From: a virus
DNA length: 37,476 bases
IMG/VR virus record: IMGVR_UViG_3300032087_004624
Location: 1-37,476 of that record
Strand: one strand, 5' to 3'
Below are positions 5,187 to 28,714 of this stretch, in pieces. Each line of letters starts with the position of its first letter. The stretch's first letter is position 1. The position numbers and the translations under genes are program-made. Under the pieces are notes generated by a model. That model was given only the letters and a program-made list of their open reading frames with translations. It was not told the DNA's origin and made no database searches.

Positions 5187-7266
5187 GGTAAATCAAAATT
5201 CAGATCTTTTTAACTTTGACTTTAGTGAAGCAATTCCTAATCTTCAAAAAAATTTAGGTGAGTTTGGTGAAGATGTTAAATCTATTGGTGGATTTTTAAA
5301 AGCTGTAAATGAATTTAATCCAGCGGAAAAAGCAAATTACATAAACGATAACTATCAAACTTTTGATGTAAATCAACTTAACGAAGCTTTAAAAGAAATG
5401 AATTCAGGCATATTACAATACAATGCTAATCATGATGAAATAGTAAGAAATTTACAGGCAAGAATAGCAAATCTTACAAGCAATAATATAGTTCCGGGTG
5501 CAAACACTAGTAATGACACAGTAAGTAACAATACTCCTGACTCTATAGTCAGCCCTACCTTAGCTTCAACAGCAAGTCAATTTGGACCTGTTATTACAGG
5601 TAAAGATCAATATGACACGTCAACTGAATATCAAAAAAGAAAGTATGAAGAAGAAGCAAATACTCCAGATATAGATGAAGCGGAAGTTAATGCATTTTTG
5701 ACAAATGAAAAAAGAGGTAACGAAGGTACTAGAGAAGCAAGAAATGAATTACAAATAAAAAATTCTCTTTATCAGCTTAGAAACTCGGAAGCAGAACAAC
5801 AATTTGAAATTTTAAAAAGCACTGAAGGTAGGATGACTGATGCAGAAAAGAAAAACAGAGTGGCAACTCTTACAGAAGAGTTAAAAGAGTCAATTGGTTA
5901 TGATGAAAAATTAGATAAAAATATGTTGTTGTTTAAATTTGGTGTTGACTTACTAAATGCTAGATCAAACAGAACAAAACCTTTACCAAAATTTCTTGAT
6001 GCGGTGGCTCAAGCATTAGCTCCTACTTCACAGTACATTATGCAACAAAAAGCACAAAAACAAAATGATTTAAAAGAAATTGGTTTAACAGCCTTTAGTT
6101 TAGTTAAAGAAGAAGATGATGCAGCACGAAAAAGATTTGAAGAAGATCCTCGTTTTGCTTCTGCTGTTATGGCAATTGATTATGATGACGACGGCAATAG
6201 ATCTGGACAAACTTCATTCTTTAAACCTATCATGACACCTGCTGAAGCTACTTTTTATTCTAATTTTAAATACCCTGAAACAATTGGAGGAGTGCCCGTG
6301 CCAGCAGAATTAGTAGGTAAACAAATGTTTACAATTACACAAACTCCTAACGCAACAGATCAAGTGTATTCGAGTGGGTTAGTTGGAAAAGATTTAAAAG
6401 CATTACAAAAACATGCTGACGTATTAAAATTTTTAGAGCAAGGTTTAGACTCTGTACAGAAAGTTTTACAAGTTGGTAATAAATATAATGAACAAGGTAA
6501 AGCTGTGTATGGTCCTTCCTATAATGCTAGAATTTTCAAAAAAACTTTGACCGCAATTTTAGATGAGGGTTCCAACACTTTTGCAGAGTTTTTTGGTACA
6601 GGTGATAAATTTAAAGCTATTAAAGAAAAAATAGCTGGAAAAGATAAACTATCTCAACAACAAATTATTTTAAATGAATTGGGTGTTGACGTGGATGTTA
6701 ATAGTTTAGTTTCTATTGCCAATAGTCAAAAAAATGCTGTCATAGCTGAAATAAATAGTAGTGACTTAACTGATGAAGAAAAAGCCCAATCACGTTCACA
6801 AGTTGCAGAATATTTTGGAGAATTTCAACGAGATTTATCTGGAGATCCTGATTTGGATATATTAAAAATATTAGAGACAACAAACACATTTGCATTTGCA
6901 CGATATTTACAAGGTTCAAACAGACTACTTAAAGATGTTATTAATACCGCAAGAAAAAATGTTCAACTTGGTGGACTTAATAACTCACATGAAATGACAA
7001 TGAATAGATACAAAAAATTTTTAAATTATTTTGCTGATGAGTATAACAAAGAACTTGAATATGTTCTTAGCCCAGAGGAATTTGAACAACATAAAATAAG
7101 AGTATCAGGAGATGGTTTATCTTATCAAGGTGGTTGGAGCCCACAAAAAACCGATACGGGCTCTGAAAGTTCATCCGCTCAAACATCAAATTATTATAAT
7201 AATGAAAAGATTGACAAGTTAGACGGACTTGTACCCCCTGAATTATTAAATCAATTAAGAAATTAA
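5179..7266 (+). CDS. Large virion-operon protein, function unknown
   Basis: A 695-residue protein starting MAEVNQNSDLFNFDFSEAIP. No domain is recognised. Acidic, asparagine-rich N-terminal residues are followed by a charged helical region around residues 150-245 (many KR/E pairs, for example NEKRGNEGTREARNELQIKN), a segment near 260-290 (RSNRTKPLPKFLDAVAQALA), and a long alpha-helical C-terminal half. It ends in a low-complexity linker (QKTDTGSESSSAQTSNYYNN). Lack of signal or membrane segments and its place between other large proteins point to an internal virion or ejection protein. It overlaps the previous gene by 8 bases and ends 1 base before the next. Confidence 0.6.
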   Translation: MAEVNQNSDLFNFDFSEAIPNLQKNLGEFGEDVKSIGGFLKAVNEFNPAEKANYINDNYQTFDVNQLNEALKEMNSGILQYNANHDEIVRNLQARIANLTSNNIVPGANTSNDTVSNNTPDSIVSPTLASTASQFGPVITGKDQYDTSTEYQKRKYEEEANTPDIDEAEVNAFLTNEKRGNEGTREARNELQIKNSLYQLRNSEAEQQFEILKSTEGRMTDAEKKNRVATLTEELKESIGYDEKLDKNMLLFKFGVDLLNARSNRTKPLPKFLDAVAQALAPTSQYIMQQKAQKQNDLKEIGLTAFSLVKEEDDAARKRFEEDPRFASAVMAIDYDDDGNRSGQTSFFKPIMTPAEATFYSNFKYPETIGGVPVPAELVGKQMFTITQTPNATDQVYSSGLVGKDLKALQKHADVLKFLEQGLDSVQKVLQVGNKYNEQGKAVYGPSYNARIFKKTLTAILDEGSNTFAEFFGTGDKFKAIKEKIAGKDKLSQQQIILNELGVDVDVNSLVSIANSQKNAVIAEINSSDLTDEEKAQSRSQVAEYFGEFQRDLSGDPDLDILKILETTNTFAFARYLQGSNRLLKDVINTARKNVQLGGLNNSHEMTMNRYKKFLNYFADEYNKELEYVLSPEEFEQHKIRVSGDGLSYQGGWSPQKTDTGSESSSAQTSNYYNNEKIDKLDGLVPPELLNQLRN

Positions 7267-7267
7267 C

Positions 7268-9922
7268 ATGCTTACAATACAAGAGTTATCAGAAATAAGA
7301 GAACAGGCAGTTAAACAACAATCTGCTCCTCAAATGCAAGATGGCGATGATACGTTTCTTCCAAAAGATTCTAAGCTACCAAAATTTTTAGGGTTTACAC
7401 AAGCTGCTGAAAGTGCAACTGGTACAACTAGATATGATCCCAACAGGCACAAACTGCCTTTTGATGAATTTAGAAATGGCATGGCCGATATTATTAGAAA
7501 TGGTTTAGCTCAAGGTAAAACTCAAGGCGAAATAATGGAAGCCACAGATCAATTTCAAAGTTTAGTTGGTTACACTGATGCTGAAATGAATCCAAGATTA
7601 ATAAGTGGTAAAGAAATTACTTCAGATCAATACAACACAGCAATGGTAAATCCTTTTCCTGCACTTAAACTTATACTTGGTTTAGGAGGAAGTGTTGGGG
7701 GAACAGTAGGTGGTGCTGTCACTGGAGCAAGATTAGGGATGTTTGGTGGTCCAGCGGGTGCTGTAGCTGGTTCAGTTATAGGTGGAACATTAGGCTATCT
7801 ATCTGGATTAGTTGGTTACGAAAAAATGTTAGACAATTTAAATAGTAAGGGCATGCTTTACACACCCACATACAATGAGATTGGCGAGTTTTTAGGTTAC
7901 AATCAAGGTATTGATAGACCTTCTCAAGAAGAATTTAAAAGTTATTTAGCAAAAGAAGCTGCTGTTGATTTAGCATTTGGTACAGCATTTGGTTTCTTTA
8001 GACCTGCTGTTAACGCACTTAGACCAATTGGAAGAAAATTAGTGGGTGTAGGTAAAAAAGAAACAGCATATGCAAGGCAAGTACAAGATGTAACAGGTAT
8101 AGCTCCTTCTTTAGCTGATGTTTCTAAATTTGAAATTATGAGAATAATTCCAAATGCTCTTGGTAAAATTCCTTTTTTTGGATCAGGTGTAAAAAGAGCA
8201 TTTAGTGAAACACAAAACAGATTTATGGAAGCATCAAAAAGTGTTTTTTATAATGGTCCATCTTTTAATTTAGCTGAACTTGGTCATGATTTATCTAAAG
8301 TTAGAGATAATATTTCTAAAAAAATTATTCAAAATGTGTCAGGAAAGTATGACAATTTTTTTGATACTATAGGTAATAAAACTGTTTTAGATATCAGTGA
8401 CACAATTAATATTGCAAAAGCACAGCTTAAAAGAATAGATGAAATTTCTGCTTTGAATCCAGCAGTAACAAGAACTCCAATGTATGAACAATTGCAAAGA
8501 ATTGCAAATTCTCCTCAACAAATGATTAATGGTGAGACATGGAAAGAAACAAGAACAGCAGTTAATGATTTAATTTATGCTTATGGAGCAAAAGGAACAG
8601 CTCAAACAGGTAATGTGGCTCTTCGTGATGCTCTCTATGAAGTGACTAAAGGATTAGAAAAAACACTTGGTAAGTATGCAGATGGTTCTGACATAGGTCC
8701 TCAACTTAAAACTTTATTAAAGGATGCGGATCAAGCTTATTCTGACATGGTAGTGTTGTTTGGTCAACCAACAGCTAAATCTTTGGGAGCAGATTCTAAA
8801 TTTGCTTATCAAGCTTTAATGAAAGCACCTGGAAGTATTGAATCCGATAGATTATTTAATGTAGTATTTAGAGATTTTCAAAGCCCCAAAGCTGTTCAAT
8901 CAATGAGAAGTTTAATGGGCGATGAAATGTTTGCAAAAGGAGTTAAAGCAAAACTACTTTCAACTTTTGAAGATTCTTTTATTTTAGGTAAACAAGATAA
9001 GCCAGGAATTTTAGATTTTGATTTAAATGTATTTAAAAATTTTGATAATCTTACTTTTGATTCAAAAAGATTTAAACGTCTTTTAGGTTTAGATCAAATG
9101 GGTAAATCATTAGAAGTAAAAGGTTCTGCTTTAGAAGAAGCTCTAAATATTGCTGGTAAGAATATTGAAATACCTGATGCGAAAAAACTTTTAGCGTTTG
9201 CTAATGCAGCAGATACTTTCTTTAATGGTAAAAATTTGAATATGTCACAATTCTTAGCAAGAAGAACAATGCTAGGTGGTGCTAGTGCGTTTGCAACTGC
9301 TGTATTTCCTATTGCTGGAGGAGTTGCTTCAGGAAACATACCTTTGACTTTATTGGGCATAATAATTGCACGTAAAGGAGGTTATTTAATTTCTTCTCCA
9401 ATGGCACTTGATGCAGCAACAAAAGCAATGGAAGCTAGTGCTAAATCTGCTACGAATATTTTTGTGAAACCTGGATTAAAAAAACCTTTACCAATATCTA
9501 ATAGGTATGCATTAGAAGCTATTGAAACTTTGTATAAACAATTTCCTGAATTACCGGGAGAACTTGACAATGAATTTAACAGACTACAAGCACAGACAAA
9601 TGAAGGTGATCCTTTAGCAAAAGATTTATATTTGCAATCGCAAGAACAATTAGATAGTTTAGGAACAATGGACGCTGTTGATCAATATTTGGATAAGAGA
9701 TACCGAGATAAAGGATTAATTGTTCCTCAAATATTTGGTACACAGAAAGAAGCACCGCAGTCAATTGAACCTACGAGCTTTGAAGTTCCAGCAGAAGCAA
9801 TTGCTCCTGATACGGGAACCGTGGCTGAAATTGAAACACCACAAAAGTTAAACCCACAATCTAGACTTGCATTAGCTGGAGATGATCCATTGATGCGAGC
9901 AATAGCAACGGAGACAATATAA
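7268..9922 (+). CDS. Very large virion protein with glycine-zipper membrane segment
   Basis: An 884-residue protein. Around residues 137-178 is a pronounced glycine-zipper (GGSVGGTVGGAVTGARLG ... GPAGAVAGSVIGGTLGYLSG), typical of proteins that insert into or pass through membranes, followed by a mostly helical body. A second hydrophobic alanine/glycine stretch lies around residues 677-710 (GGASAFATAVFPIAGGVASG). It ends with a proline/threonine-rich tail. It is the longest gene of the operon and the best candidate for an internal virion protein ejected with DNA. No lytic transglycosylase motif was found. The start ATG follows the preceding stop by 1 base with only a weak Shine-Dalgarno. Confidence 0.6.
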   Translation: MLTIQELSEIREQAVKQQSAPQMQDGDDTFLPKDSKLPKFLGFTQAAESATGTTRYDPNRHKLPFDEFRNGMADIIRNGLAQGKTQGEIMEATDQFQSLVGYTDAEMNPRLISGKEITSDQYNTAMVNPFPALKLILGLGGSVGGTVGGAVTGARLGMFGGPAGAVAGSVIGGTLGYLSGLVGYEKMLDNLNSKGMLYTPTYNEIGEFLGYNQGIDRPSQEEFKSYLAKEAAVDLAFGTAFGFFRPAVNALRPIGRKLVGVGKKETAYARQVQDVTGIAPSLADVSKFEIMRIIPNALGKIPFFGSGVKRAFSETQNRFMEASKSVFYNGPSFNLAELGHDLSKVRDNISKKIIQNVSGKYDNFFDTIGNKTVLDISDTINIAKAQLKRIDEISALNPAVTRTPMYEQLQRIANSPQQMINGETWKETRTAVNDLIYAYGAKGTAQTGNVALRDALYEVTKGLEKTLGKYADGSDIGPQLKTLLKDADQAYSDMVVLFGQPTAKSLGADSKFAYQALMKAPGSIESDRLFNVVFRDFQSPKAVQSMRSLMGDEMFAKGVKAKLLSTFEDSFILGKQDKPGILDFDLNVFKNFDNLTFDSKRFKRLLGLDQMGKSLEVKGSALEEALNIAGKNIEIPDAKKLLAFANAADTFFNGKNLNMSQFLARRTMLGGASAFATAVFPIAGGVASGNIPLTLLGIIIARKGGYLISSPMALDAATKAMEASAKSATNIFVKPGLKKPLPISNRYALEAIETLYKQFPELPGELDNEFNRLQAQTNEGDPLAKDLYLQSQEQLDSLGTMDAVDQYLDKRYRDKGLIVPQIFGTQKEAPQSIEPTSFEVPAEAIAPDTGTVAEIETPQKLNPQSRLALAGDDPLMRAIATETI

Positions 9923-10938: not shown

Positions 10939-11138
10939 AAATAAATCCTCTCAACATTACTGCAATAGGTATCGCTACTGTAACTGTGATTTATAGTTAT
11001 GGAATGTTGGTAACAAGGGTTAATGCTAATGAAAGTAAAATAAAAGATTTAGATATGCTTCGCATTGATGCAAGGCTATCTGTTATTGAAGCTAATGTTG
11101 TTTCAATAGATGATAAAATTGATCAATTAATAGATTAA
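10935..11138 (+). CDS. Small single-pass membrane protein with coiled coil
   Basis: A 67-residue protein. Residues 8-27 (ITAIGIATVTVIYSYGMLVT) form one transmembrane segment; the rest (NESKIKDLDMLRIDARLSVI and onward) has heptad-like spacing and probably forms a coiled coil on the far side of the membrane. This resembles XhlA-like or spanin-like small phage proteins in layout, but not in any residue motif I can name. It is last in the virion operon, and its final 12 bases overlap the convergent gene on the minus strand. Its location 23 kb from holin and lysozyme weakens a lysis assignment. Confidence 0.6.
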   Translation: MKINPLNITAIGIATVTVIYSYGMLVTRVNANESKIKDLDMLRIDARLSVIEANVVSIDDKIDQLID

Positions 11139-11324
11139 TTCTAACCAAGAATCTTCTTTAATTAACTCAAAATATTTCCACGTACAAAACTCATCACTAA
11201 AGTCACCTAATTCGTTTACGCGACAATCGCGCAAAAATGTTTGGTAGGGTGAGTTATAAATGTAAAGGTAAACACAACCTACAATCGTTAAACAAATTAT
11301 GATGATTTTAAAAAATTGAAGCAT
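11127..11324 (-). CDS. Small exported or membrane-anchored cysteine-containing protein
   Basis: A 65-residue protein from the ATG at 11324. A TTG start at 11372 would add 16 basic residues but has no ribosome site. The N terminus MLQFFKIIIICLTIVGC is a signal-anchor or a possible lipoprotein signal (IVGC is lipobox-like), followed by VYLYIYNSPYQTFLRDCRV and later FCTWKYFELI. The hydrophobic stretch continues past the cysteine, so a membrane anchor is as likely as a lipoprotein. It converges on the plus-strand virion operon with a 12-base overlap. Together with the next gene it forms a pair of small envelope-directed proteins; a spanin-like or superinfection role is speculation. Confidence 0.45.
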   Translation of the reverse strand: MLQFFKIIIICLTIVGCVYLYIYNSPYQTFLRDCRVNELGDFSDEFCTWKYFELIKEDSWLELIY

Positions 11325-13925: not shown

Positions 13926-15499
13926 GCGTAAAGTTCCTTAAAAACATACCCGCGATCATTCCGAGTAATAAATAAATTTTTTCTTGCTCTAGTCATTCCC
14001 GTGTAAAAAACTTTTCGCAAGTCATTAATGTTTTCTCTGAGTGCAGCTTGAGCACTTGGAGATATGTTTGAAAATAAAATGACGTTATCAGCTTCTCCTC
14101 CTTTCACGCCGTAAATTGTATTGACAGTAATTTGTGGTTCTGAATTTATATTGATGTTACGTTCCATAACTTTTTCAATGTAGGTTCTATCACCCGCGTT
14201 TACTGTGTCTAATGCTTCATGCCAAGGCACATCTTTATCTAATAGTAAACCTAAATCACAAAGACCATCATAATTATATTTTGCATCAATATCTAAATTT
14301 TTAAATTGTTTTGCACCTGTTTTTAAAGCACCGTAAGGTTTCTTTTTATTTCGTGTTGACATAAAATTAAATAAATTTTTTATGCTATCCGCATATACTT
14401 CTCCGCCTTCTTGTATTTTTTTCCAAGTGTTGATTGCGTAAATAACTTCTTCTTTTATTGAAAGTGTTTTAAATTTTTTATAGAACATTCCATGTTGTCG
14501 TAATGTTCGAACTACATTGTCTAACATATAACCACAGGTAGCTAAGAAGTAATAAGATCCTTCTAACCTATAATTTATAAATTTTTCATTATCCAGATAA
14601 TGTATATTACCACCTTCGTGAACCGCTTCCCATTGTTTTTGTTCTCTTAACTCTGGAGAGATGCGTTCAATAAGTTTTTTTGACTTGTCTGCTATCAATT
14701 TTGGTACTCTATATGACTTATTTAACACTTTAGATTGACCTTCTAAGTTCTTGAAAAACAAGGATTCTGCTCCAGCCCAGTCAAATATCTCTTGATCATC
14801 ATCACCAGCAATGTAAACTCTCTCCGCTTGATTAATAAATTTTAAAATCATAGCCCATTGTAAACGTGTAAGATCTTGAGCTTCATCAACAATGACAACT
14901 TTTAATTTTGGAACATGAACATCCTCGTAAACAATTTTTTCAATACTATCTGTAAAGTCAAAGACTTGATTTTTATCTTTGTACTTTCTCAATGTGTCTG
15001 CAATAAATTGCAAAGTAAGATAGCCCCCATCTAATGATCGTGATACTTTATGAAATGTTTTTAGGTCTTGCATTCTTTGACGCGCTAAATCAACTAAACG
15101 TATGTAAGGATTATCGCTTATACTTCGACCCATTTCATCGACATCTAAATCACCTCGCATATTTATATCCATTGTTATTTTTTGTGATCTACATAACTCG
15201 GCAAACTCATACCAATTTTTTGGTTTCATTTTATTCTGTGGTTGAAAGCCTCCTATCTTCCAAGCAATGCTATGCAAAGTTTTAAAGTATTCAAATTTTT
15301 TAGCGTCGACTTTCAAAAGTTTTGTCGCCCTACTTATCGCTTCGAGTCTGGCTTTGCGAGTGAATGTAAAAAATCCAATGTCTTCGGGTGTACAGTGATC
15401 TTGCAACTCCCGTTCTATAATATCAAGAAGAGTTTTAGTTTTACCTGTTCCTGGTGGACCAAATATTTTTAAAGTATTTTTATTTAAATTTTTTAACAC
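13922..15499 (-). CDS. UvrD/Rep-like superfamily 1 DNA helicase
   Basis: A 525-residue protein starting at GTG (15499) behind a good GGAGG site. Motif I is GPPGTGKT at residues 14-21, then a Q-rich helical part with FFTFTRKARLEA (motif Ia), motif II VDEAQD near 203, motif III AGDDDQEIFDWAGA near 236, motif V TIYGVKGGEADN near 466 and motif VI VFYTGMTRARKNLF near 500. These are all SF1A signatures; the length is short compared with UvrD (about 720), in keeping with Dda-like phage helicases. It likely unwinds DNA 3'-5' at forks or removes bound proteins. The gene sits between the methyltransferase (7-base overlap) and polymerase. Confidence 0.9.
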   Translation of the reverse strand: MLKNLNKNTLKIFGPPGTGKTKTLLDIIERELQDHCTPEDIGFFTFTRKARLEAISRATKLLKVDAKKFEYFKTLHSIAWKIGGFQPQNKMKPKNWYEFAELCRSQKITMDINMRGDLDVDEMGRSISDNPYIRLVDLARQRMQDLKTFHKVSRSLDGGYLTLQFIADTLRKYKDKNQVFDFTDSIEKIVYEDVHVPKLKVVIVDEAQDLTRLQWAMILKFINQAERVYIAGDDDQEIFDWAGAESLFFKNLEGQSKVLNKSYRVPKLIADKSKKLIERISPELREQKQWEAVHEGGNIHYLDNEKFINYRLEGSYYFLATCGYMLDNVVRTLRQHGMFYKKFKTLSIKEEVIYAINTWKKIQEGGEVYADSIKNLFNFMSTRNKKKPYGALKTGAKQFKNLDIDAKYNYDGLCDLGLLLDKDVPWHEALDTVNAGDRTYIEKVMERNININSEPQITVNTIYGVKGGEADNVILFSNISPSAQAALRENINDLRKVFYTGMTRARKNLFITRNDRGYVFKELYA

Positions 15500-16461
15500 T
15501 GTTCCTCCACTTGTAAAATTGATTGTGCAATGAAGTAAGGTATTTGCGGTACTAAACTATTTCCTAGTCCTTTAAGTCTGTCCACCCTATTGGGTATCCC
15601 ATGAGCCACTCTACCCAGTTCGGGTTCAATGTCCCACCAGTTTTGTCCTTGTTGTCCGTGTGCTGCACTGTTACGTCCAAAGTGTCTCTGCTGACTTTCC
15701 CATTCCTTATTCTGCCTCCTATGTATCCTCCCTTGCCGTCCCTCGATGTTGGTGTCGGCCATAGTTTCGCCTCTTTTGATAGACTCTGTTGTTTCGCTGT
15801 GTCCATGTTTTTCCAATCCGAGTTCAACGGAGTCGGCCAAAGTCTCTTCTCCCTTACTTGATCGGCTAATCGTATCTGTATCTGCTGACCGCTCGGTCGT
15901 TTCAAGTGGCCCGCGTCTAGTGCTTTCTGTATTCCCGGTAGGTTCGATCCGCCCGCCATGTTGTCTGGCGTTCGCCACAATCCAGATTCTTTCTCTTTGG
16001 TGTTTTGCACCGACGCTCGAAGCTGAAATACTAAATGTCCTTGCGGAGTAACCTTCACTTTCCAAGTTCTCGAGTACGGTGTCGAGACCGAGTTTAATGT
16101 GTCCACTAACGTTTTCTCCAATAACCCAAGACGGTCTGAGTTCTTTGATAAGTCTAAAATACTCTGGCCAGAGGTGTCTCGGATCTTCTTCACCTTTTTT
16201 TCTACCTGCGACGGAGAAAGGTTGGCAAGGGTATCCACCTGTGATGATGTCGATAGGCCCAATTCCATCTGCTTTAAGTCTTTCATAGTTTAACTCCTTT
16301 ATATCTTCATATTGTTTAACGCTTGGCCATTGTTTTTTTAAAACTTTTTTTGAATACTTATCAATATCACAAAACGCTACTGTTTCAAAACCACCCGTGG
16401 CTTCTAGTCCTAAACTGAAGCCACCGATACCACTAAATAAATCTAAGTGTTTTAATTTCAT
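15493..16461 (-). CDS. C5-cytosine DNA methyltransferase (Dcm type)
   Basis: A 322-residue enzyme. Motif I is LDLFSGIGGFSLGL (residues 6-19), motif IV GGYPCQPFSVAG with catalytic Cys79, motif VI ENV (116-118), motif VIII QRERIWIVA (155-163), and motifs IX/X RLKGLGNSLVPQ near 295-306. It transfers methyl from S-adenosylmethionine to cytosine C5, probably protecting phage DNA from host restriction. The part between motifs VIII and IX (about 165-285), where target recognition should lie, is unusually hydrophilic and low in complexity (many E, R, T, S, G), with repeated ADT/ADS. That stretch also encodes another protein in a second frame (15564-16286). Its own ribosome site is weak. No cognate restriction enzyme is adjacent. 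Confidence 0.92.
   Translation of the reverse strand: MKLKHLDLFSGIGGFSLGLEATGGFETVAFCDIDKYSKKVLKKQWPSVKQYEDIKELNYERLKADGIGPIDIITGGYPCQPFSVAGRKKGEEDPRHLWPEYFRLIKELRPSWVIGENVSGHIKLGLDTVLENLESEGYSARTFSISASSVGAKHQRERIWIVANARQHGGRIEPTGNTESTRRGPLETTERSADTDTISRSSKGEETLADSVELGLEKHGHSETTESIKRGETMADTNIEGRQGRIHRRQNKEWESQQRHFGRNSAAHGQQGQNWWDIEPELGRVAHGIPNRVDRLKGLGNSLVPQIPYFIAQSILQVEEQC
15564..16286 (-). CDS. Overlapping gene nested in the methyltransferase: WPTP/GWT-type phage protein
   Basis: A 240-residue reading frame wholly inside the methyltransferase gene, same strand, other frame. Its ATG (16286) is preceded by AAAGGAGTTAAACT, matching this phage's best ribosome sites and stronger than that of the methyltransferase itself. 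The protein has tryptophan motifs LWRTPDN (103-109), LWPTPLNSD (149-157) and LWPTPTSRD (175-183), and ends LNPNWVEWLMG then YPIGWTDLKD (220-240). I recognise this pattern from phage proteins usually called hypothetical and often found near C5-methyltransferases. The WPTP codons are the same bases that give ADT/ADS repeats in the methyltransferase. Function is unknown; a partner or specificity role for the methyltransferase is inference. Confidence 0.75.
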   Translation of the reverse strand: MKDLKQMELGLSTSSQVDTLANLSPSQVEKKVKKIRDTSGQSILDLSKNSDRLGLLEKTLVDTLNSVSTPYSRTWKVKVTPQGHLVFQLRASVQNTKEKESGLWRTPDNMAGGSNLPGIQKALDAGHLKRPSGQQIQIRLADQVREKRLWPTPLNSDWKNMDTAKQQSLSKEAKLWPTPTSRDGKGGYIGGRIRNGKVSRDTLDVTVQHTDNKDKTGGTLNPNWVEWLMGYPIGWTDLKD

Positions 16462-16736
16462 ATGCCTATCTTCACATTGTTTTTAGCATACCACTCTTCT
16501 AATTTCTTTTTCGGGTCTTGTAATTTAGAAGAACCTTCTCCAGGTTTTAGATCTCTTAGTTTTTTTAATTTACGTTTTTCTTGTTTTTCCCAAACAGCTT
16601 TTAGCCATTTAGTTGTTTCTTCTTTCATTGGTATGTAAGTGTAATCACCTTTTTTATCGAGAGCGATATCCCATTCTTTATCTTCTAAAGCAATGCACTT
16701 TAAAATGTAATCGTATATTTCTTTTGATAGTTTCAT
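16458..16736 (-). CDS. Small basic protein of the replication operon, function unknown
   Basis: A 92-residue, lysine/glutamate-rich helical protein (MKLSKEIYDYILKCIALEDK at the N terminus, a basic segment EKQEKRKLKKLRDLKPGEGS in the middle). No family recognised. It has a perfect ribosome site (AAAGGAGTTCGA) and is the first gene behind the promoter at 16760-16788. Its stop overlaps the methyltransferase start (ATGA), so it may feed ribosomes to that gene, whose own site is weak. A nucleic-acid-binding role is suggested only by charge. Confidence 0.65.
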   Translation of the reverse strand: MKLSKEIYDYILKCIALEDKEWDIALDKKGDYTYIPMKEETTKWLKAVWEKQEKRKLKKLRDLKPGEGSSKLQDPKKKLEEWYAKNNVKIGI

Positions 16737-23918: not shown

Positions 23919-24434
23919 ATGAAAAAAACTAATATTGTTGAAATAACTCCTCAACAAAGAAAATTTTGTGAGTTAATTATTATGTATGATGGCGAATGGA
24001 CAGCAACTCAATGTGCCATTGAAGCAGGATATTCTGAAAAGTCAGCTAGAGTTATTGCTAGTCAATTACAAAATAGAGAGAAGTATCCAAAAGTTTATGA
24101 TTATTTGCTAGAGCTAAGAGAAGAGCAACACAAAAAATATCATGTCAATTATAATCGTCACATGAGAAGGCTTGCGAGTTTATCAAAAGCAGCAGAAGAA
24201 AAAGGCAATTATACGGCAGCCGTAAGTGCTGAAGTTTCAAGAGGAAAAGCAGCAGGTTTGTATGTTGATAGAAAAGAAATTTTGACAGGATCAATTGATA
24301 GTATGCCTAAGGCAGAGGTTGAAAGAAGACTTGCTGACTTGAAAAAAAGGTTTCCAAAAGTAGTAAATGCACTTTCACGTGAAAAGAAAAAAGGAAATGA
24401 AAGAGAAGAATATTTGGAAAACGATAAGACTTAA
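23919..24434 (+). CDS. terS: Terminase small subunit
   Basis: A 171-residue protein. The N-terminal part TPQQRKFCELIIMYDGEWTA then TQCAIEAGYSEKSARVIASQ and LQNREKYPKVYDYL is the Terminase_2 (PF03592) DNA-binding helix-turn-helix pattern (QxxFxE ... ATQxAIxAGYS ... AxxxASxLL). A helical oligomerisation part follows, with a basic C-terminal tail (ALSREKKKGNEREEY). It binds phage DNA at the packaging start and feeds it to the large subunit. Ribosome site AGGGG. It is separated from terL (27251) by a 2.8-kb accessory island, which is unusual. The GGTAACA cluster just upstream is its likely target by position. Confidence 0.85.
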   Translation: MKKTNIVEITPQQRKFCELIIMYDGEWTATQCAIEAGYSEKSARVIASQLQNREKYPKVYDYLLELREEQHKKYHVNYNRHMRRLASLSKAAEEKGNYTAAVSAEVSRGKAAGLYVDRKEILTGSIDSMPKAEVERRLADLKKRFPKVVNALSREKKKGNEREEYLENDKT

Positions 24435-24825
24435 CAGTAATATTGTTAAGTGGGATAGAGTTGAATCTAAAACATCTCCTGGAATCCCTGATTTACATGG
24501 GTTTTTTAAAGATATTGATACAGGCTTTGGACATACGTTTTGGGTCGAATTAAAATTAACTAAGACTAACAAAGTTTTGTTAAGTTCTAAGCAAATTGCA
24601 TGGCATCATCGCTTTGAAAAGTATGGTGGAACATCTTTCATCTGCGTTAAGGCCCTCTTACAGAGGTCACTGCTGATATATGTGGGAAAAAGGGCCACGG
24701 ATCTCGGGGAAAAAGGCTTGAAGCTCGCCCCAGACTTGGTCATGACCGAAACATGGGCCGAGGACCGCTTTGTGGAGCTCGTAAAAATACGCCAAAAATA
24801 CGCCAAACCCTACGCCTCTATATAG
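24367..24825 (+). CDS. VRR-NUC-like nuclease
   Basis: A 152-residue protein (start uncertain: ATG 24367 or ATG 24397). The catalytic pattern is SKTSPGIPDLHG, then FWVELKLTKTNKVLLSSKQI, then FEKYGGTSFICVKA: G-x-P-D, E-x-K and a glutamine in helix 3, as in VRR-NUC/Holliday-junction-resolvase-like PD-(D/E)xK enzymes (PF08774). It would cut branched DNA or act in repair or recombination. Base composition turns GC-richer in the second half, and the last residues (RQKYAKPYASI) are encoded by a copy of the boundary repeat, suggesting a re-made C terminus. It overlaps terS by 68 bases. Confidence 0.75.
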   Translation: MHFHVKRKKEMKEKNIWKTIRLNSNIVKWDRVESKTSPGIPDLHGFFKDIDTGFGHTFWVELKLTKTNKVLLSSKQIAWHHRFEKYGGTSFICVKALLQRSLLIYVGKRATDLGEKGLKLAPDLVMTETWAEDRFVELVKIRQKYAKPYASI

Positions 24826-24860
24826 ATTGATTAGCATCACCTGGCGTGCAGCTGGGATGG
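24783..24860 (+). repeat. Boundary repeat, copy 1
   Basis: AAAAATACGCCAAAAATACG ... TATATAGAT ... CATCACCTGG ... GCAGCTGG. It covers the end of the nuclease gene. A related fragment (GAAATCCGCCAAAAATTACC) follows near 24884-24903. Confidence 0.5.
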
Positions 24861-24942
24861 CGGGAAGACTTTAAAATATGGCAGAAATCCGCCAAAAATT
24901 ACCCTGAGGCGTGAGCTGGCCCTGCCAGGGCCCTGGAAGCTG

Positions 24943-25033
24943 GGGAAAAAATACGCTGACTTTTCGCCGTTTTCTGGGCTTTTATATAGATTCGTTCAGG
25001 TCTCCTGTCCCGCAGCTGAGTTTGCCGCTGGGG
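24943..25033 (+). repeat. Boundary repeat, copy 2
   Basis: GAAAAAATACGCTGACTTTT, then CGCCGTTTTCTGGGCTTT, TATATAGAT, CAGGTCTCC and GCAGCTGAG. This is the fullest copy, non-coding, ahead of the GP88-type gene. A GGCCCT-GCC-AGGGCC hairpin lies just upstream (24918-24932). Confidence 0.55.
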
Positions 25034-25053
25034 AAAAATAAATTTTTAATTGG

Positions 25054-25081
25054 TTGACTTATAATAAGTTATAACTATATT
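25054..25081 (+). promoter_or_regulatory. Sigma70-like promoter with AGTTATAACT palindrome in spacer
   Basis: TTGACT (25054-25059) and TATATT (25076-25081) are 16 bases apart. The 10-bp palindrome AGTTATAACT (25067-25076) sits between them, an ideal place for a repressor. It drives the GP88-type gene. Confidence 0.6.
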
Positions 25082-25103
25082 CTATTATAAAAAAGGGGTT
25101 ATT

Positions 25104-25739
25104 ATGTTTACAGTAAAAGAAGCGTGGGCGCTGGTCGGGGGCTTGTCTAAGCCGTCCAAGATGCCGGGCCACGGCTATGGATTAAGTGCTAAAGATTGCA
25201 AGACAGGAAGTATATTAAGAAAAGTTGCTAACAGTGTTTGCTCTGCTTGTTACGCGTTAAAGGGTCGTTATGTTTTCCCGAATGTGTACGAGGCGCACCA
25301 GCGCCGATTAAAATCAATTGAAAATAAATTATGGGTTGAGGCGATGGCCTCATTAATTAATTGGTATAAGAACAAATCAAAATATTTTAGATGGCACGAT
25401 AGCGGAGATCTCCAGGGCGTGGCTCATTTAAAGAAAATTGTTGAAGTGTGCAACAAAACGCCGGGCGTGATGCACTGGCTGCCAACGCGTGAAGCTGGTT
25501 TCATTAAAGAATATAAAAACAAATACGGCGAGTTTCCAAAAAATTTAGTTGTCAGGATATCGGCGACGATGGTCAACGGCGTCCCGCATAAGTTCCACGG
25601 TCACAGCTCCACGGTTGTCACCAGCGAAGACCTGGCGACGTCACACCTATGCAAAGCATATAAACAAGGCAATGAATGCAAGACTTGCCGGGCGTGTTGG
25701 GATCCAAAACATCCTGATATAGCATACTTAAAACATTAG
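25104..25739 (+). CDS. GP88-family phage protein
   Basis: A 211-residue protein. Motifs: LSAKDCKTGSILRKVANSVC followed by SACYALKGRY, then RWHDSGDLQG, MHWLPTREAG, NLVVRISATMV and C-terminal CKTCRACWD. This is the GP88 (PF17338) pattern of mycobacteriophage and marine phage proteins. Three or four cysteine groups (CKTG, CxxCYA, CKTCRACW) point to a metal or iron-sulfur site; the chemistry is not known to me. The first 40 codons are GC-richer than most phage genes. It stands as a separate cassette between two boundary repeats and has its own promoter. Confidence 0.8.
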   Translation: MFTVKEAWALVGGLSKPSKMPGHGYGLSAKDCKTGSILRKVANSVCSACYALKGRYVFPNVYEAHQRRLKSIENKLWVEAMASLINWYKNKSKYFRWHDSGDLQGVAHLKKIVEVCNKTPGVMHWLPTREAGFIKEYKNKYGEFPKNLVVRISATMVNGVPHKFHGHSSTVVTSEDLATSHLCKAYKQGNECKTCRACWDPKHPDIAYLKH

Positions 25740-25747
25740 GGGGAACG

Positions 25748-26002
25748 ATGTCGACAAAATACGCTGACTTTTCGCCACGTCTGTGGCCTTACTATACATT
25801 ACACAAGCCGCCAGCGGCGAGTTTCTCCGTTGTCAAGCCCAAAGAATCGGCAGAAAACAGCCATTTTTTACGTCCATCTGAGCCTGAAGCTTCGCCTCCA
25901 GGTGAGCTTCTGAGAAAAAATACGCTGAAATATCGCCGTTTTCTGGGGTTTCTTATAGATCCAGGTGCCCCGGAACGGGATGCAGCTGAGTGGCAGCTAT
26001 GA
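25748..26002 (+). CDS. Possible small protein built from boundary repeats
   Basis: An 84-codon frame starting MSTKYADFSPRLWPYYTLHK behind a GGGGGA ribosome site, ending in an ATGA overlap with the next membrane-protein gene. Both features favour translation. Yet much of it is made of two boundary repeats (its start and its last 28 codons), and the product is proline-, serine- and arginine-rich without recognisable fold. It may be a recently formed frame or a leader that couples translation of the next gene. Treat as doubtful. Confidence 0.35.
   Translation: MSTKYADFSPRLWPYYTLHKPPAASFSVVKPKESAENSHFLRPSEPEASPPGELLRKNTLKYRRFLGFLIDPGAPERDAAEWQL
25754..25800 (+). repeat. Boundary repeat, copy 3 (left half)
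   Basis: ACAAAATACGCTGACTTTTC then GCCACGTCTGTGGCCTTAC. It begins inside the first codons of the following frame and lacks the TATATAGAT and GCAGCTG parts. Confidence 0.45.
25913..25998 (+). repeat. Boundary repeat, copy 4
   Basis: GAAAAAATACGCTGAAATAT, then CGCCGTTTTCTGGGG, CTTATAGATCCAGGTG and GCAGCTGAGTGGCAGCT. It ends right at the start of the 39-residue membrane gene. Confidence 0.55.
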
Positions 26003-26118
26003 TGTTTTTCTTTATCACCTTTATTATTTTGGTTGCTGTCGGTCGAAACCCTTTTGTTGCGTTCCTTTTTGCTAGTTTGTTCGCACTATTCTTCGCAGTT
26101 CATGGGTTCTTGTCGTGA
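25999..26118 (+). CDS. 39-residue hydrophobic membrane protein
   Basis: A tiny frame MMFFFITFIILVAVGRNPFV followed by AFLFASLFALFFAVHGFLS. Two hydrophobic segments around GRNP form a likely membrane hairpin, very like the layout of the 44-residue protein at 21736. It starts by ATGA overlap with the preceding frame and is flanked by boundary repeats on both sides, so it looks like a single-gene cassette. Function unknown. Confidence 0.55.
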   Translation: MMFFFITFIILVAVGRNPFVAFLFASLFALFFAVHGFLS

Positions 26119-26195
26119 AAAATACATCAGTTGTTCGCCACTCGTGTGGTCTTTATATAGATCTAGAACACATCACCTGGGCTGACCTGGAGTGA
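26116..26195 (+). repeat. Boundary repeat, copy 5
   Basis: GTGAAAAATACATCAGTTG, TTCGCCACTCGTGTGGTC, TATATAGATCTAG, CATCACCTGGGCTGACCTGG. In this copy TTGTTC and TATATA are exactly 17 bases apart, a promoter-like arrangement. Confidence 0.5.
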
Positions 26196-26222: not shown

Positions 26223-26273
26223 TCAGAATTTTTGGAGTTTAAATTATATGAAAAAATAAATTATTATTTTCTT

Positions 26274-26295
26274 TACTTATAATTAATTATAAGTA
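26274..26295. promoter_or_regulatory. Perfect 22-bp palindrome, ACTTATAA half-sites
   Basis: TACTTATAATT and its exact reverse complement AATTATAAGTA meet without spacer. It carries the early motif on both strands and lies 63 bases before the ATG at 26358. Likely operator. Confidence 0.5.
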
Positions 26296-26297
26296 GA

Positions 26298-26326
26298 TTG
26301 GTATTTGTATTAATAGTTAATACTAG
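26298..26326 (+). promoter_or_regulatory. Possible promoter for the 26358 operon
   Basis: TTGGTA (26298-26303) and TACTAG (26321-26326), 17 bases apart, downstream of the 22-bp palindrome. The -10 match is weak. Confidence 0.3.
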
Positions 26327-27018: not shown

Positions 27019-27250
27019 CACACTCTTCCACCAGCGTAACCAGCCAGTCCTGAAATAATCCCCGACTCACACGCCACTATATATAGTAGCTATTACATTT
27101 AGATATACCTCATCTAGAGTCCCAACTCGATTTTGCCAGAAATAATCCCTTAAAACGACGCCACCCCCCTCTCCCCCCTATACATTGTGGGCATGCACGT
27201 AGCGTGTAAGTTTTACACAAACGAATATATGTGCTAAACATCACAGAAAA
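27019..27250 (+). promoter_or_regulatory. Gene-free stretch upstream of terL
   Basis: With the hairpin it makes a 268-base gap. It holds CTATATATAG (27077-27086), a C-rich tract of CCACCCCCCTCTCCCCCC type near 27161-27178 (odd for this genome), and the inverted repeat GTGTAA-GTT-TTACAC (27204-27218). No convincing -35/-10 pair or ribosome site was found before the terL ATG. Confidence 0.35.
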
Positions 27251-28714
27251 ATGGATTACGATCAAATTACTTATTCCGAAGCTGAAGACTTAATTAAAAA
27301 ATTAGAATTAAAAAAAGCTGAAATAGAAACGTCACATCATTCAAGAGAAGATTATTTGTCTTTCGTACGTGCCGTATGGCCAGAATTTATTGCAGGGTAT
27401 CACCATAAAAAAATTGCAGAAAAATTTAATTTGATCAAAGAGGGCAAGTTAAAACGCTTAATCGTTAATATGCCTCCACGTCATACCAAATCAGAATTTG
27501 CTTCTTTTCTTTTTCCCGCATGGATGATGGGCCACAATCCGAAGTTAAAGATTATTCAAACTACGCACACAGCAGAACTCTCTTATCGTTTTGGTCGTAA
27601 GGTACGTAACCTTATGGACTCAGAGGATTATAAAAATATTTTTACAGATATAAAACTATCACAAGATTCGAAGGCCGCGGGCCGTTGGGAAACGAATAAG
27701 GGCGGTGAATATTTTGGCGCGGGTGTTGGTGGTGCAATCACGGGCCGTGGTGCGGATTTATTGATCATCGATGACCCTCACTCGGAACAAGATGCGCTTA
27801 GTCAAACCGCGTTCGATAACGCGTACGAATGGTATACCTCTGGTCCTCGTCAGCGTCTACAACCTGGTGGAGCCATTGTTATTGTTATGACCCGTTGGTC
27901 CGTTAAAGATCTAACAGGTAAATTGGTTAATGCACAAAAAGAAGTTAAAGCAGATCAGTGGGATATGATTGAGTTTCCTGCAATCTTTCCTGAGACGGGT
28001 AATCCTATGTGGCCTGAGTATTGGAAAGCAGATGAATTACTTTCTGTCAAAGCATCTCTGTCAGAACAGAAGTGGCAAGCACAGTGGCAACAGCAACCCA
28101 CCAGTGAAGAAGGTTCCATAATAAAACGTGACTGGTGGAAGTTATATGAACATGAGGATCCCCCTCCCCTCCAACATATAATTCAAAGCTACGATACAGC
28201 GTATAGTAAAAAAGAAACAGCCGATTATTCGGCGATTACCACATGGGGAGTTTTCTTTAGAGATGAAATGCGTGCACCTGCTTGTATTTTGTTAGACGCG
28301 AAACGCGGGCGGTGGGAATTTCCAGAGTTAAAACGGATCGCGGTCGAACAGTACAATTACTGGGAACCAGAAACCGTGATCGTCGAAGCGAAAGCGTCAG
28401 GCCTTCCGCTCACGTACGAGTTACGTCAAACAGGAATTCCTGTTGTTAACTTTACACCGAGCAAAGGAAATGATAAACATTCAAGAGTAAACGCTGTAGC
28501 ACCTCTATTTGAATCAGGACAAGTTTATTATCCTGACGAAAGGTGGGCGCAAGAGGTTATTGAGGAATGTGCTGCTTTTCCTTTTGGTGAACACGACGAT
28601 TATGTTGACTCCACCACTCAAGCTCTGTTAAGATTTAGACAGGGAAATTTTATTACGCACCCAGAAGACTACGAGGATGAGCCAAGTATGTTGAAGATGC
28701 GAGAATACTATTAG
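27251..28714 (+). CDS. terL: Terminase large subunit
   Basis: A 487-residue protein. ATPase: LIVNMPPRHTKSEFAS (variant Walker A, residues 73-82), LLIIDDPHSEQD (Walker B, near 170-177), VMTRWSVKDLTG (coupling motif). Nuclease: IQSYDTAYSKKETADYSAIT near 310-330 (first Asp), VIVEAKASGLPL near 377 (Glu) and GEHDDYVDS near 447 (Asp). This is a full-length phage motor that cuts and translocates concatemeric DNA into the prohead. The ribosome site is poor (no GGAG before the ATG). It heads the plus-strand packaging and morphogenesis operon. Confidence 0.95.
   Translation: MDYDQITYSEAEDLIKKLELKKAEIETSHHSREDYLSFVRAVWPEFIAGYHHKKIAEKFNLIKEGKLKRLIVNMPPRHTKSEFASFLFPAWMMGHNPKLKIIQTTHTAELSYRFGRKVRNLMDSEDYKNIFTDIKLSQDSKAAGRWETNKGGEYFGAGVGGAITGRGADLLIIDDPHSEQDALSQTAFDNAYEWYTSGPRQRLQPGGAIVIVMTRWSVKDLTGKLVNAQKEVKADQWDMIEFPAIFPETGNPMWPEYWKADELLSVKASLSEQKWQAQWQQQPTSEEGSIIKRDWWKLYEHEDPPPLQHIIQSYDTAYSKKETADYSAITTWGVFFRDEMRAPACILLDAKRGRWEFPELKRIAVEQYNYWEPETVIVEAKASGLPLTYELRQTGIPVVNFTPSKGNDKHSRVNAVAPLFESGQVYYPDERWAQEVIEECAAFPFGEHDDYVDSTTQALLRFRQGNFITHPEDYEDEPSMLKMREYY

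Follow-up and report, generated by a model that had tools for sequence, protein, structure and literature searches.

The window analysed here, a 37,476-nucleotide stretch comprising the whole of the viral record IMGVR_UViG_3300032087_004624, contains an interval bordered on the left by terS (23919..24434) and on the right by terL (27251..28714), both on the + strand and assigned by family match. Between them, motif and profile matches place a stand-alone VRR-Nuc nuclease resembling Holliday-junction resolvases (24367..24825, +, with an alternative start at 24388). The VRR-Nuc motif PD...ExK...Q is present, with E, PD, ELK and Q invariant in the alignment, and the profile matches the solved VRR-Nuc proteins 4qbn (E = 3.6e-4) and 4qbo (E = 0.055); the window nuclease's own Pfam match falls below the cutoff. 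A GP88 (PF17338) cassette gene lies at 25104..25739 (+; family match and codon-position test), with a sigma-70-like promoter, TTGACT-N16-TATATT, found by promoter scan at 25054..25081 (+), and a 39-residue membrane-type ORF lies at 25999..26118 (+).

Counts of differences at codon positions 1, 2 and 3 are 53/18/275 in GP88 and 5/1/31 in the membrane-type ORF, the latter indicating coding selection. By contrast, the 84-residue frame at 25748..26002 (+), which the first-pass annotation had listed with repeats at its ends, gave 78/78/81 across seven relatives; we therefore rule it out as a gene and regard it as a non-coding unit running from one repeat copy to the next (copies 3 and 4 below). The cassette-gene promoters share a palindromic box (TTATAACTnnTTATAA-like; window 25054–25090 and 26252–26299, and 6671–6700, 7277–7305 and 8093–8125 of the related contig L048), which suggests, from its sequence, a possible common operator. 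Elsewhere in the window, two long minus-strand frames (15493–16461 and 15564–16286) overlap in full: the first is a cytosine methyltransferase frame, and the second ends in NPNWVEWLMGYPIGW, which resembles a methyltransferase C terminus.

Homologous terL, terS, VRR-Nuc and GP88 genes make up the same interval in HTVC023P-type pelagiphages, a very common marine phage group. The window terL is 61–66% identical to those of HTVC023P, HTVC027P and 023Pt_psg01 in global alignment (63–69% over the part aligned by tblastn), and on the basis of the global identity we assign the window to an uncultured HTVC023P-type phage. Its host is inferred to be Pelagibacter, from the isolates only.

A 45-bp element of fixed geometry

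Five repeat copies had been reported between terS and terL. They are real, beginning no more than 5 bp from the positions first given, and they share a 45-bp element of fixed geometry, AAAATAC-N10-CGCC-N18-TAnAT. All were located on the + strand by alignment, pattern search and weight scan: copy 1 at 24784..24828, copy 2 at 24948..24992, copy 3 at 25756..25800, copy 4 at 25917..25961 and copy 5 at 26119..26163, immediately 3' of the stop codon of the membrane-type ORF. Of the longer unit originally proposed, this 45-bp core is fixed, whereas the CAGG/CCTGG/CAGCTG stretch after TATAGATT is alike in flavour but not in sequence. The DNA around the repeats is GC-richer than the rest (0.42–0.48 versus about 0.34), as had been noted. 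Copy 1 holds three ATACGCC-type boxes 11–12 bp apart and, as also proposed, forms the C terminus of the nuclease, encoding the last residues and stop of its frame.

In a gap-free 47-nt alignment, the five copies are 62–87% identical to one reference copy. The core pattern with up to three mismatches occurs four times in the window, against 0.09 expected by chance. A position-weight scan, whose matrix was partly trained on the five window copies, scored them at 43–51, against a maximum of 6.0 under a Markov null in which each base is drawn from the two preceding bases. Because the matrix includes the five copies, cleaner evidence comes from a sixth, a C-rich diverged version just 5' of terL (27142..27186, +), which scores 19.6 though absent from the training set. 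Similarly, the TAnAT box is the informative part of the geometry, since AAAATAC and CGCC served in the pattern by which copies were picked. A degenerate copy 7 (27055..27099, +) was recognised by eye, by analogy with position 8835 of L048, and lies below the scan threshold. Two half-elements were read directly from the + strand: AAAATATGGCAGAAATCCGCC at 24873..24893, which has only the first 21 bp of the geometry and is near-invariant in eight relatives, and AAAGAATCGGCAGAAAACAGCC at 25841..25862, between copies 3 and 4. Owing to the degeneracy of the copies, exact 11-mer counting failed to reveal most of the repeats.

Confinement to one interval and turnover of cassettes

A loose form of the pattern matched in 19 of 24 records, giving about 100 pattern matches rather than verified copies (a few carry two mismatches or a shifted register), all within the terS–terL interval and on the terL strand. 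The reversed control pattern had no match in those 24 records. The five records without the element are deeper relatives. In the longer records, the terS–terL interval alone scores in the position-weight scan. Across the viral collection, matches to the stricter full pattern were confined to this phage lineage, and shorter patterns also returned single, unrelated-looking matches. The bacterial collection yielded seven single genome matches in unrelated phyla, against about three expected from a base-count estimate; a mobile element of the hosts is ruled out, these matches being single and at chance level. blastn against the phage collection found no match to known phage DNA, and a pattern search found no element in the genomes of HTVC023P, HTVC027P and 023Pt_psg01, despite their having the same interval gene set. 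A 2022 survey of genomes in this group does not use the word 'intergenic' in its main text, and its relevant passages describe no such repeats.

Within the lineage, the genes between the repeats differ. The near clade carries the genes of the window. In a sister clade of five contigs (L048–L051 and L053; terS 82% identical), a different gene, geneX, takes the place of GP88 between the same repeats, and an additional gene, geneY, precedes p26358, again between the same repeats. In two further contigs, L077 and L078, a PAPS-reductase-domain gene separates terL from the terL-proximal copy (L077 1267–2022), and two near relatives, L017 and L043, carry one extra unit of ~165 bp with both ends in the AAAATAC box. 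Identity to near relatives drops in the repeat-bearing intergenic stretches. Since the sister genes differ and close relatives gain or lose the ~165-bp unit, the repeats delimit cassettes in this lineage, and the earlier proposal that they bound single-gene cassettes holds at this scale. The leaders of these genes also vary: in four near relatives (L042, L004, L044 and L046), a GP88 leader of ~80 nt (GGGTTAATACCTGAAACATGCTTAAGAGTAGC...) differs from that of the window, and in three of the sister clade (L049 2080–2250, L050 and L051) a long, GC-rich and partly duplicated leader (GGGCCGGTACCGAATCCGTTTGGAAGTTCC...) precedes geneX. Rfam searches were empty for the L042 GP88 leader and gave no match for the geneX leaders of L049 and L051.

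Between lineages the picture is different. GP88 occupies the same interval in HTVC023P, HTVC027P and 023Pt_psg01, but is flanked there by unrelated repeats, so across lineages gene and repeat do not move together. Same genes with unrelated flanks is what the first-pass annotation had named as evidence against it, and its suggestion of mobile units moving with their genes is set aside: no relative of the element turned up outside this lineage, and copies in unrelated phages or hosts, the mark of an independent mobile element, were found in neither the viral nor the bacterial collection. Judged from this comparison, the repeat is a property of the locus and not of the individual gene, and recombination between copies is the inferred route of exchange.

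Oriented repeats of other lineages

Among 43 loci with enough sequence, direct-repeat families of at least three copies lie upstream of terL in 22 and downstream in one; on inspection, some five of those 22 resemble repeats of promoters or ribosome-binding sites. Two motifs, GGGCCCACCC and (GCwTGnn)x3, taken from 023Pt_psg01 and HTVC027P, were tallied at 80 terL loci, some of which had helped to choose the motif. All matches (23/23 and 67/67, respectively, the latter being overlapping heptad registers and not 67 separate sites) lie upstream of terL and on its strand; the opposite strand and 433 kb of downstream sequence gave no match. These counts led us to use the heptad as a probe of the viral collection.

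The scan for (GCTTGnn)n, in which a few contigs recur from an earlier search, found one-strand arrays in 79 of 80 loci among the matches listed. The strand counts tally records, not evolutionary changes, because the records are metagenomic fragments and homologous contigs are non-independent events; among the matches listed, the heptad strand is that of VRR-Nuc in 68/68 and of terL in 20/20 (leaving out a 24%-identity match in L211), and opposite to that of GP88 in 61/61 and of terS in 66/67. Arrays lie within 600 bp of GP88 on both sides in 31 of the loci listed, on one side in 28 and on neither in two; in two loci an array position falls inside the GP88 match. Most arrays listed begin −15 to +75 bp from the end of the nuclease match, and in HTVC027P (16164–16520) and the heptad-type loci the C terminus of VRR-Nuc is itself written in GCTTGnn heptads (DACGLKLEPCCLGLEACGL...). 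In 023Pt_psg01, a copy on the terL strand sits between two opposite-strand genes. HTVC023P (L070) has its own repeats after terS (8568–8666; three copies with a 33-bp period) and after the nuclease gene (11017–11188; spaced 56–58 bp).

Because orientation follows terL and VRR-Nuc and not the neighbouring genes, we favour a genome-level DNA function over a gene-level transcript signal: the repeat is very probably an oriented DNA site of a locus with cassette turnover. One orientation would equally be preserved if a simple repeat spread by unequal crossing-over, and the repeats might be passive, expanding, minisatellite-like sequence tolerated in gene-poor junction gaps with no selected function. 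Copy number does vary among close relatives, the sequence is wholly different between lineages, and heptad arrays have extended into the nuclease gene. However, the 45-bp geometry, with AAAATAC, CGCC and a near-invariant TAnAT at set distances, is kept in copies that have diverged at other positions and between clades with 82% terS identity, and no copy was seen elsewhere in the genomes scanned. We consider a passive origin very unlikely.

A role as promoters, terminators or stoperator-like operators of the cassette genes would account for the placement of the window-clade copies, which come after gene ends and before gene starts and share the strand of the genes. TCGCC(A/G)-N17-TAGATT also has sigma-70 spacing, in line with the promoter first suggested for the repeats. 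Against this, each hexamer matches at only about four of six positions, the promoter scan called no repeat copy, GP88 has a promoter-like box of its own, and in relatives the heptads point against GP88 and terS, or, in 023Pt_psg01, a copy lies between genes of the other strand. Sites resembling promoters or terminators are about as frequent in the region as in shuffled sequence. Some copies can form a hairpin followed by T-rich sequence, but there is no RNA structure on average; the mean folding z of the core is −0.11 ± 0.19 (52 copies), with a weak effect in the 50 nt downstream (mean z −0.49), and an Rfam search of the repeat region returned one sub-threshold chance match only. An RNA element or terminator is ruled out, the core folding no better than shuffles, and a transcriptional role of any kind appears improbable.

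Known phage repeats resemble these units in some features and differ in others. The promoter early stem-loops of T4-type phages (PeSLs; Arbiol 2010, Comeau 2014), described in the citing paper PMC4503421 as composites of promoter and stem-loop, resemble the present units as repeated intergenic sequences bounding exchangeable single genes. Unlike PeSLs as described there, the units have no structured core, promoters appear to be separate from them, and their orientation follows terL and not the cassette genes. Mycobacteriophage stoperators are likewise asymmetric sites in short intergenic spaces with one orientation (PMC9283540), but they are 13 bp long, genome-wide, repressor-bound and aligned along transcription, whereas the element here is 45 bp, occurs in one interval and is not gene-aligned in relatives. 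The SAS/ESAS of Cluster K are phage-restricted oriented repeats beside different genes (PMC3203893); SAS sit 3–7 bp before start codons, a proximity that the window copies, at gene ends and in gaps, do not have.

Candidate readers of the sites

Replication could also read oriented sites at the junction between replication and structural modules, as origin iterons or as oriented priming or termination sites. Iteron-like direct repeats with 7-bp and 11–12-bp periods and lineage-specific units would suit such a role, as would their overlap with coding sequence; the lambda ori, too, overlaps a coding sequence. Against this, GC skew shows no switch at the interval beyond that of the inverted genes themselves in three complete genomes, and the copies are dispersed among cassettes instead of clustered. 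We regard replication sites as unlikely, on a par with a transcriptional role.

We propose instead that the repeats are oriented cis-acting sites belonging to the terS–terL interval of HTVC023P-type phages, which a phage DNA-processing machine would read directionally. The reader would most likely be the terminase, with the repeats as packaging-initiation sites, and recombination between copies would allow single genes to be gained and lost. Ends cut in packaging, together with the adjacent junction-cleaving VRR-Nuc, may help such recombination. Packaging initiation fits the location, the polarity, the lineage-specific sequence and the precedent of SPP1 and SF6: direct repeats occur in the pac site of SPP1, in the vicinity of terS, and SF6 lacks the boxA repeats of SPP1 but carries another pair (PMC4737164). 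HTVC023P-type genomes, moreover, were circularised from terminal overlaps (PMC9599517). Here, too, direct repeats lie near terS, were absent elsewhere in pattern and weight scans, and differ between relatives, and a nuclease of junction-cleaving type adjoins them. Known pac sites are compact, however, whereas these copies, known from sequence alone, are spread over 2–4 kb among cassettes, and the TerS of SF6 shows no sequence preference when it binds its own pac DNA (PMC4737164). Contig ends within the interval were set aside as packaging ends, because assemblies also break at repeats and where populations vary. Nor does strand agreement separate terL from VRR-Nuc, which are always co-directed here. 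We consider pac-like sites specifically to be possible, with the balance against them; the whole explanation, oriented cis-acting sites that are most likely pac-like, with cassette turnover, remains tentative at a little under even chances.

The nuclease itself might instead be the reader. The repeats would then be its target or docking sites, and the enzyme would nick or resolve its own lineage-specific repeat in a homing- or integron-like insertion and loss of genes. In the window and HTVC027P clades a repeat starts within the nuclease gene's 3' end or right at it, in HTVC023P and 023Pt_psg01 a repeat starts close by, and the strand agreement with the nuclease is complete among the loci listed. 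Across 15 phages, element type requires two changes on the nuclease tree against three each on the terS and terL trees, so that TerS is not favoured as the reader, although a difference of one change among 15 taxa is too small to decide. On the other side, terL lies on the same strand, and characterised stand-alone VRR-Nuc enzymes select four-way junctions, no sequence specificity being reported in the relevant part of PMC4103454. Targeting by VRR-Nuc is doubtful, and a more elaborate form of it, a rapidly diverging system of DNA addresses through which the VRR-Nuc and oriented repeat of each lineage, as a pair, dock and exchange single terS–terL genes as a phage counterpart of the integron, is more doubtful still.

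A strictly oriented, lineage-specific repeat restricted to one interval provides a marker for finding these phages. It is also a candidate signal for packaging or processing, open to testing in two cultured isolates, and the interval offers a concrete place in which to follow the exchange of single genes among phages.
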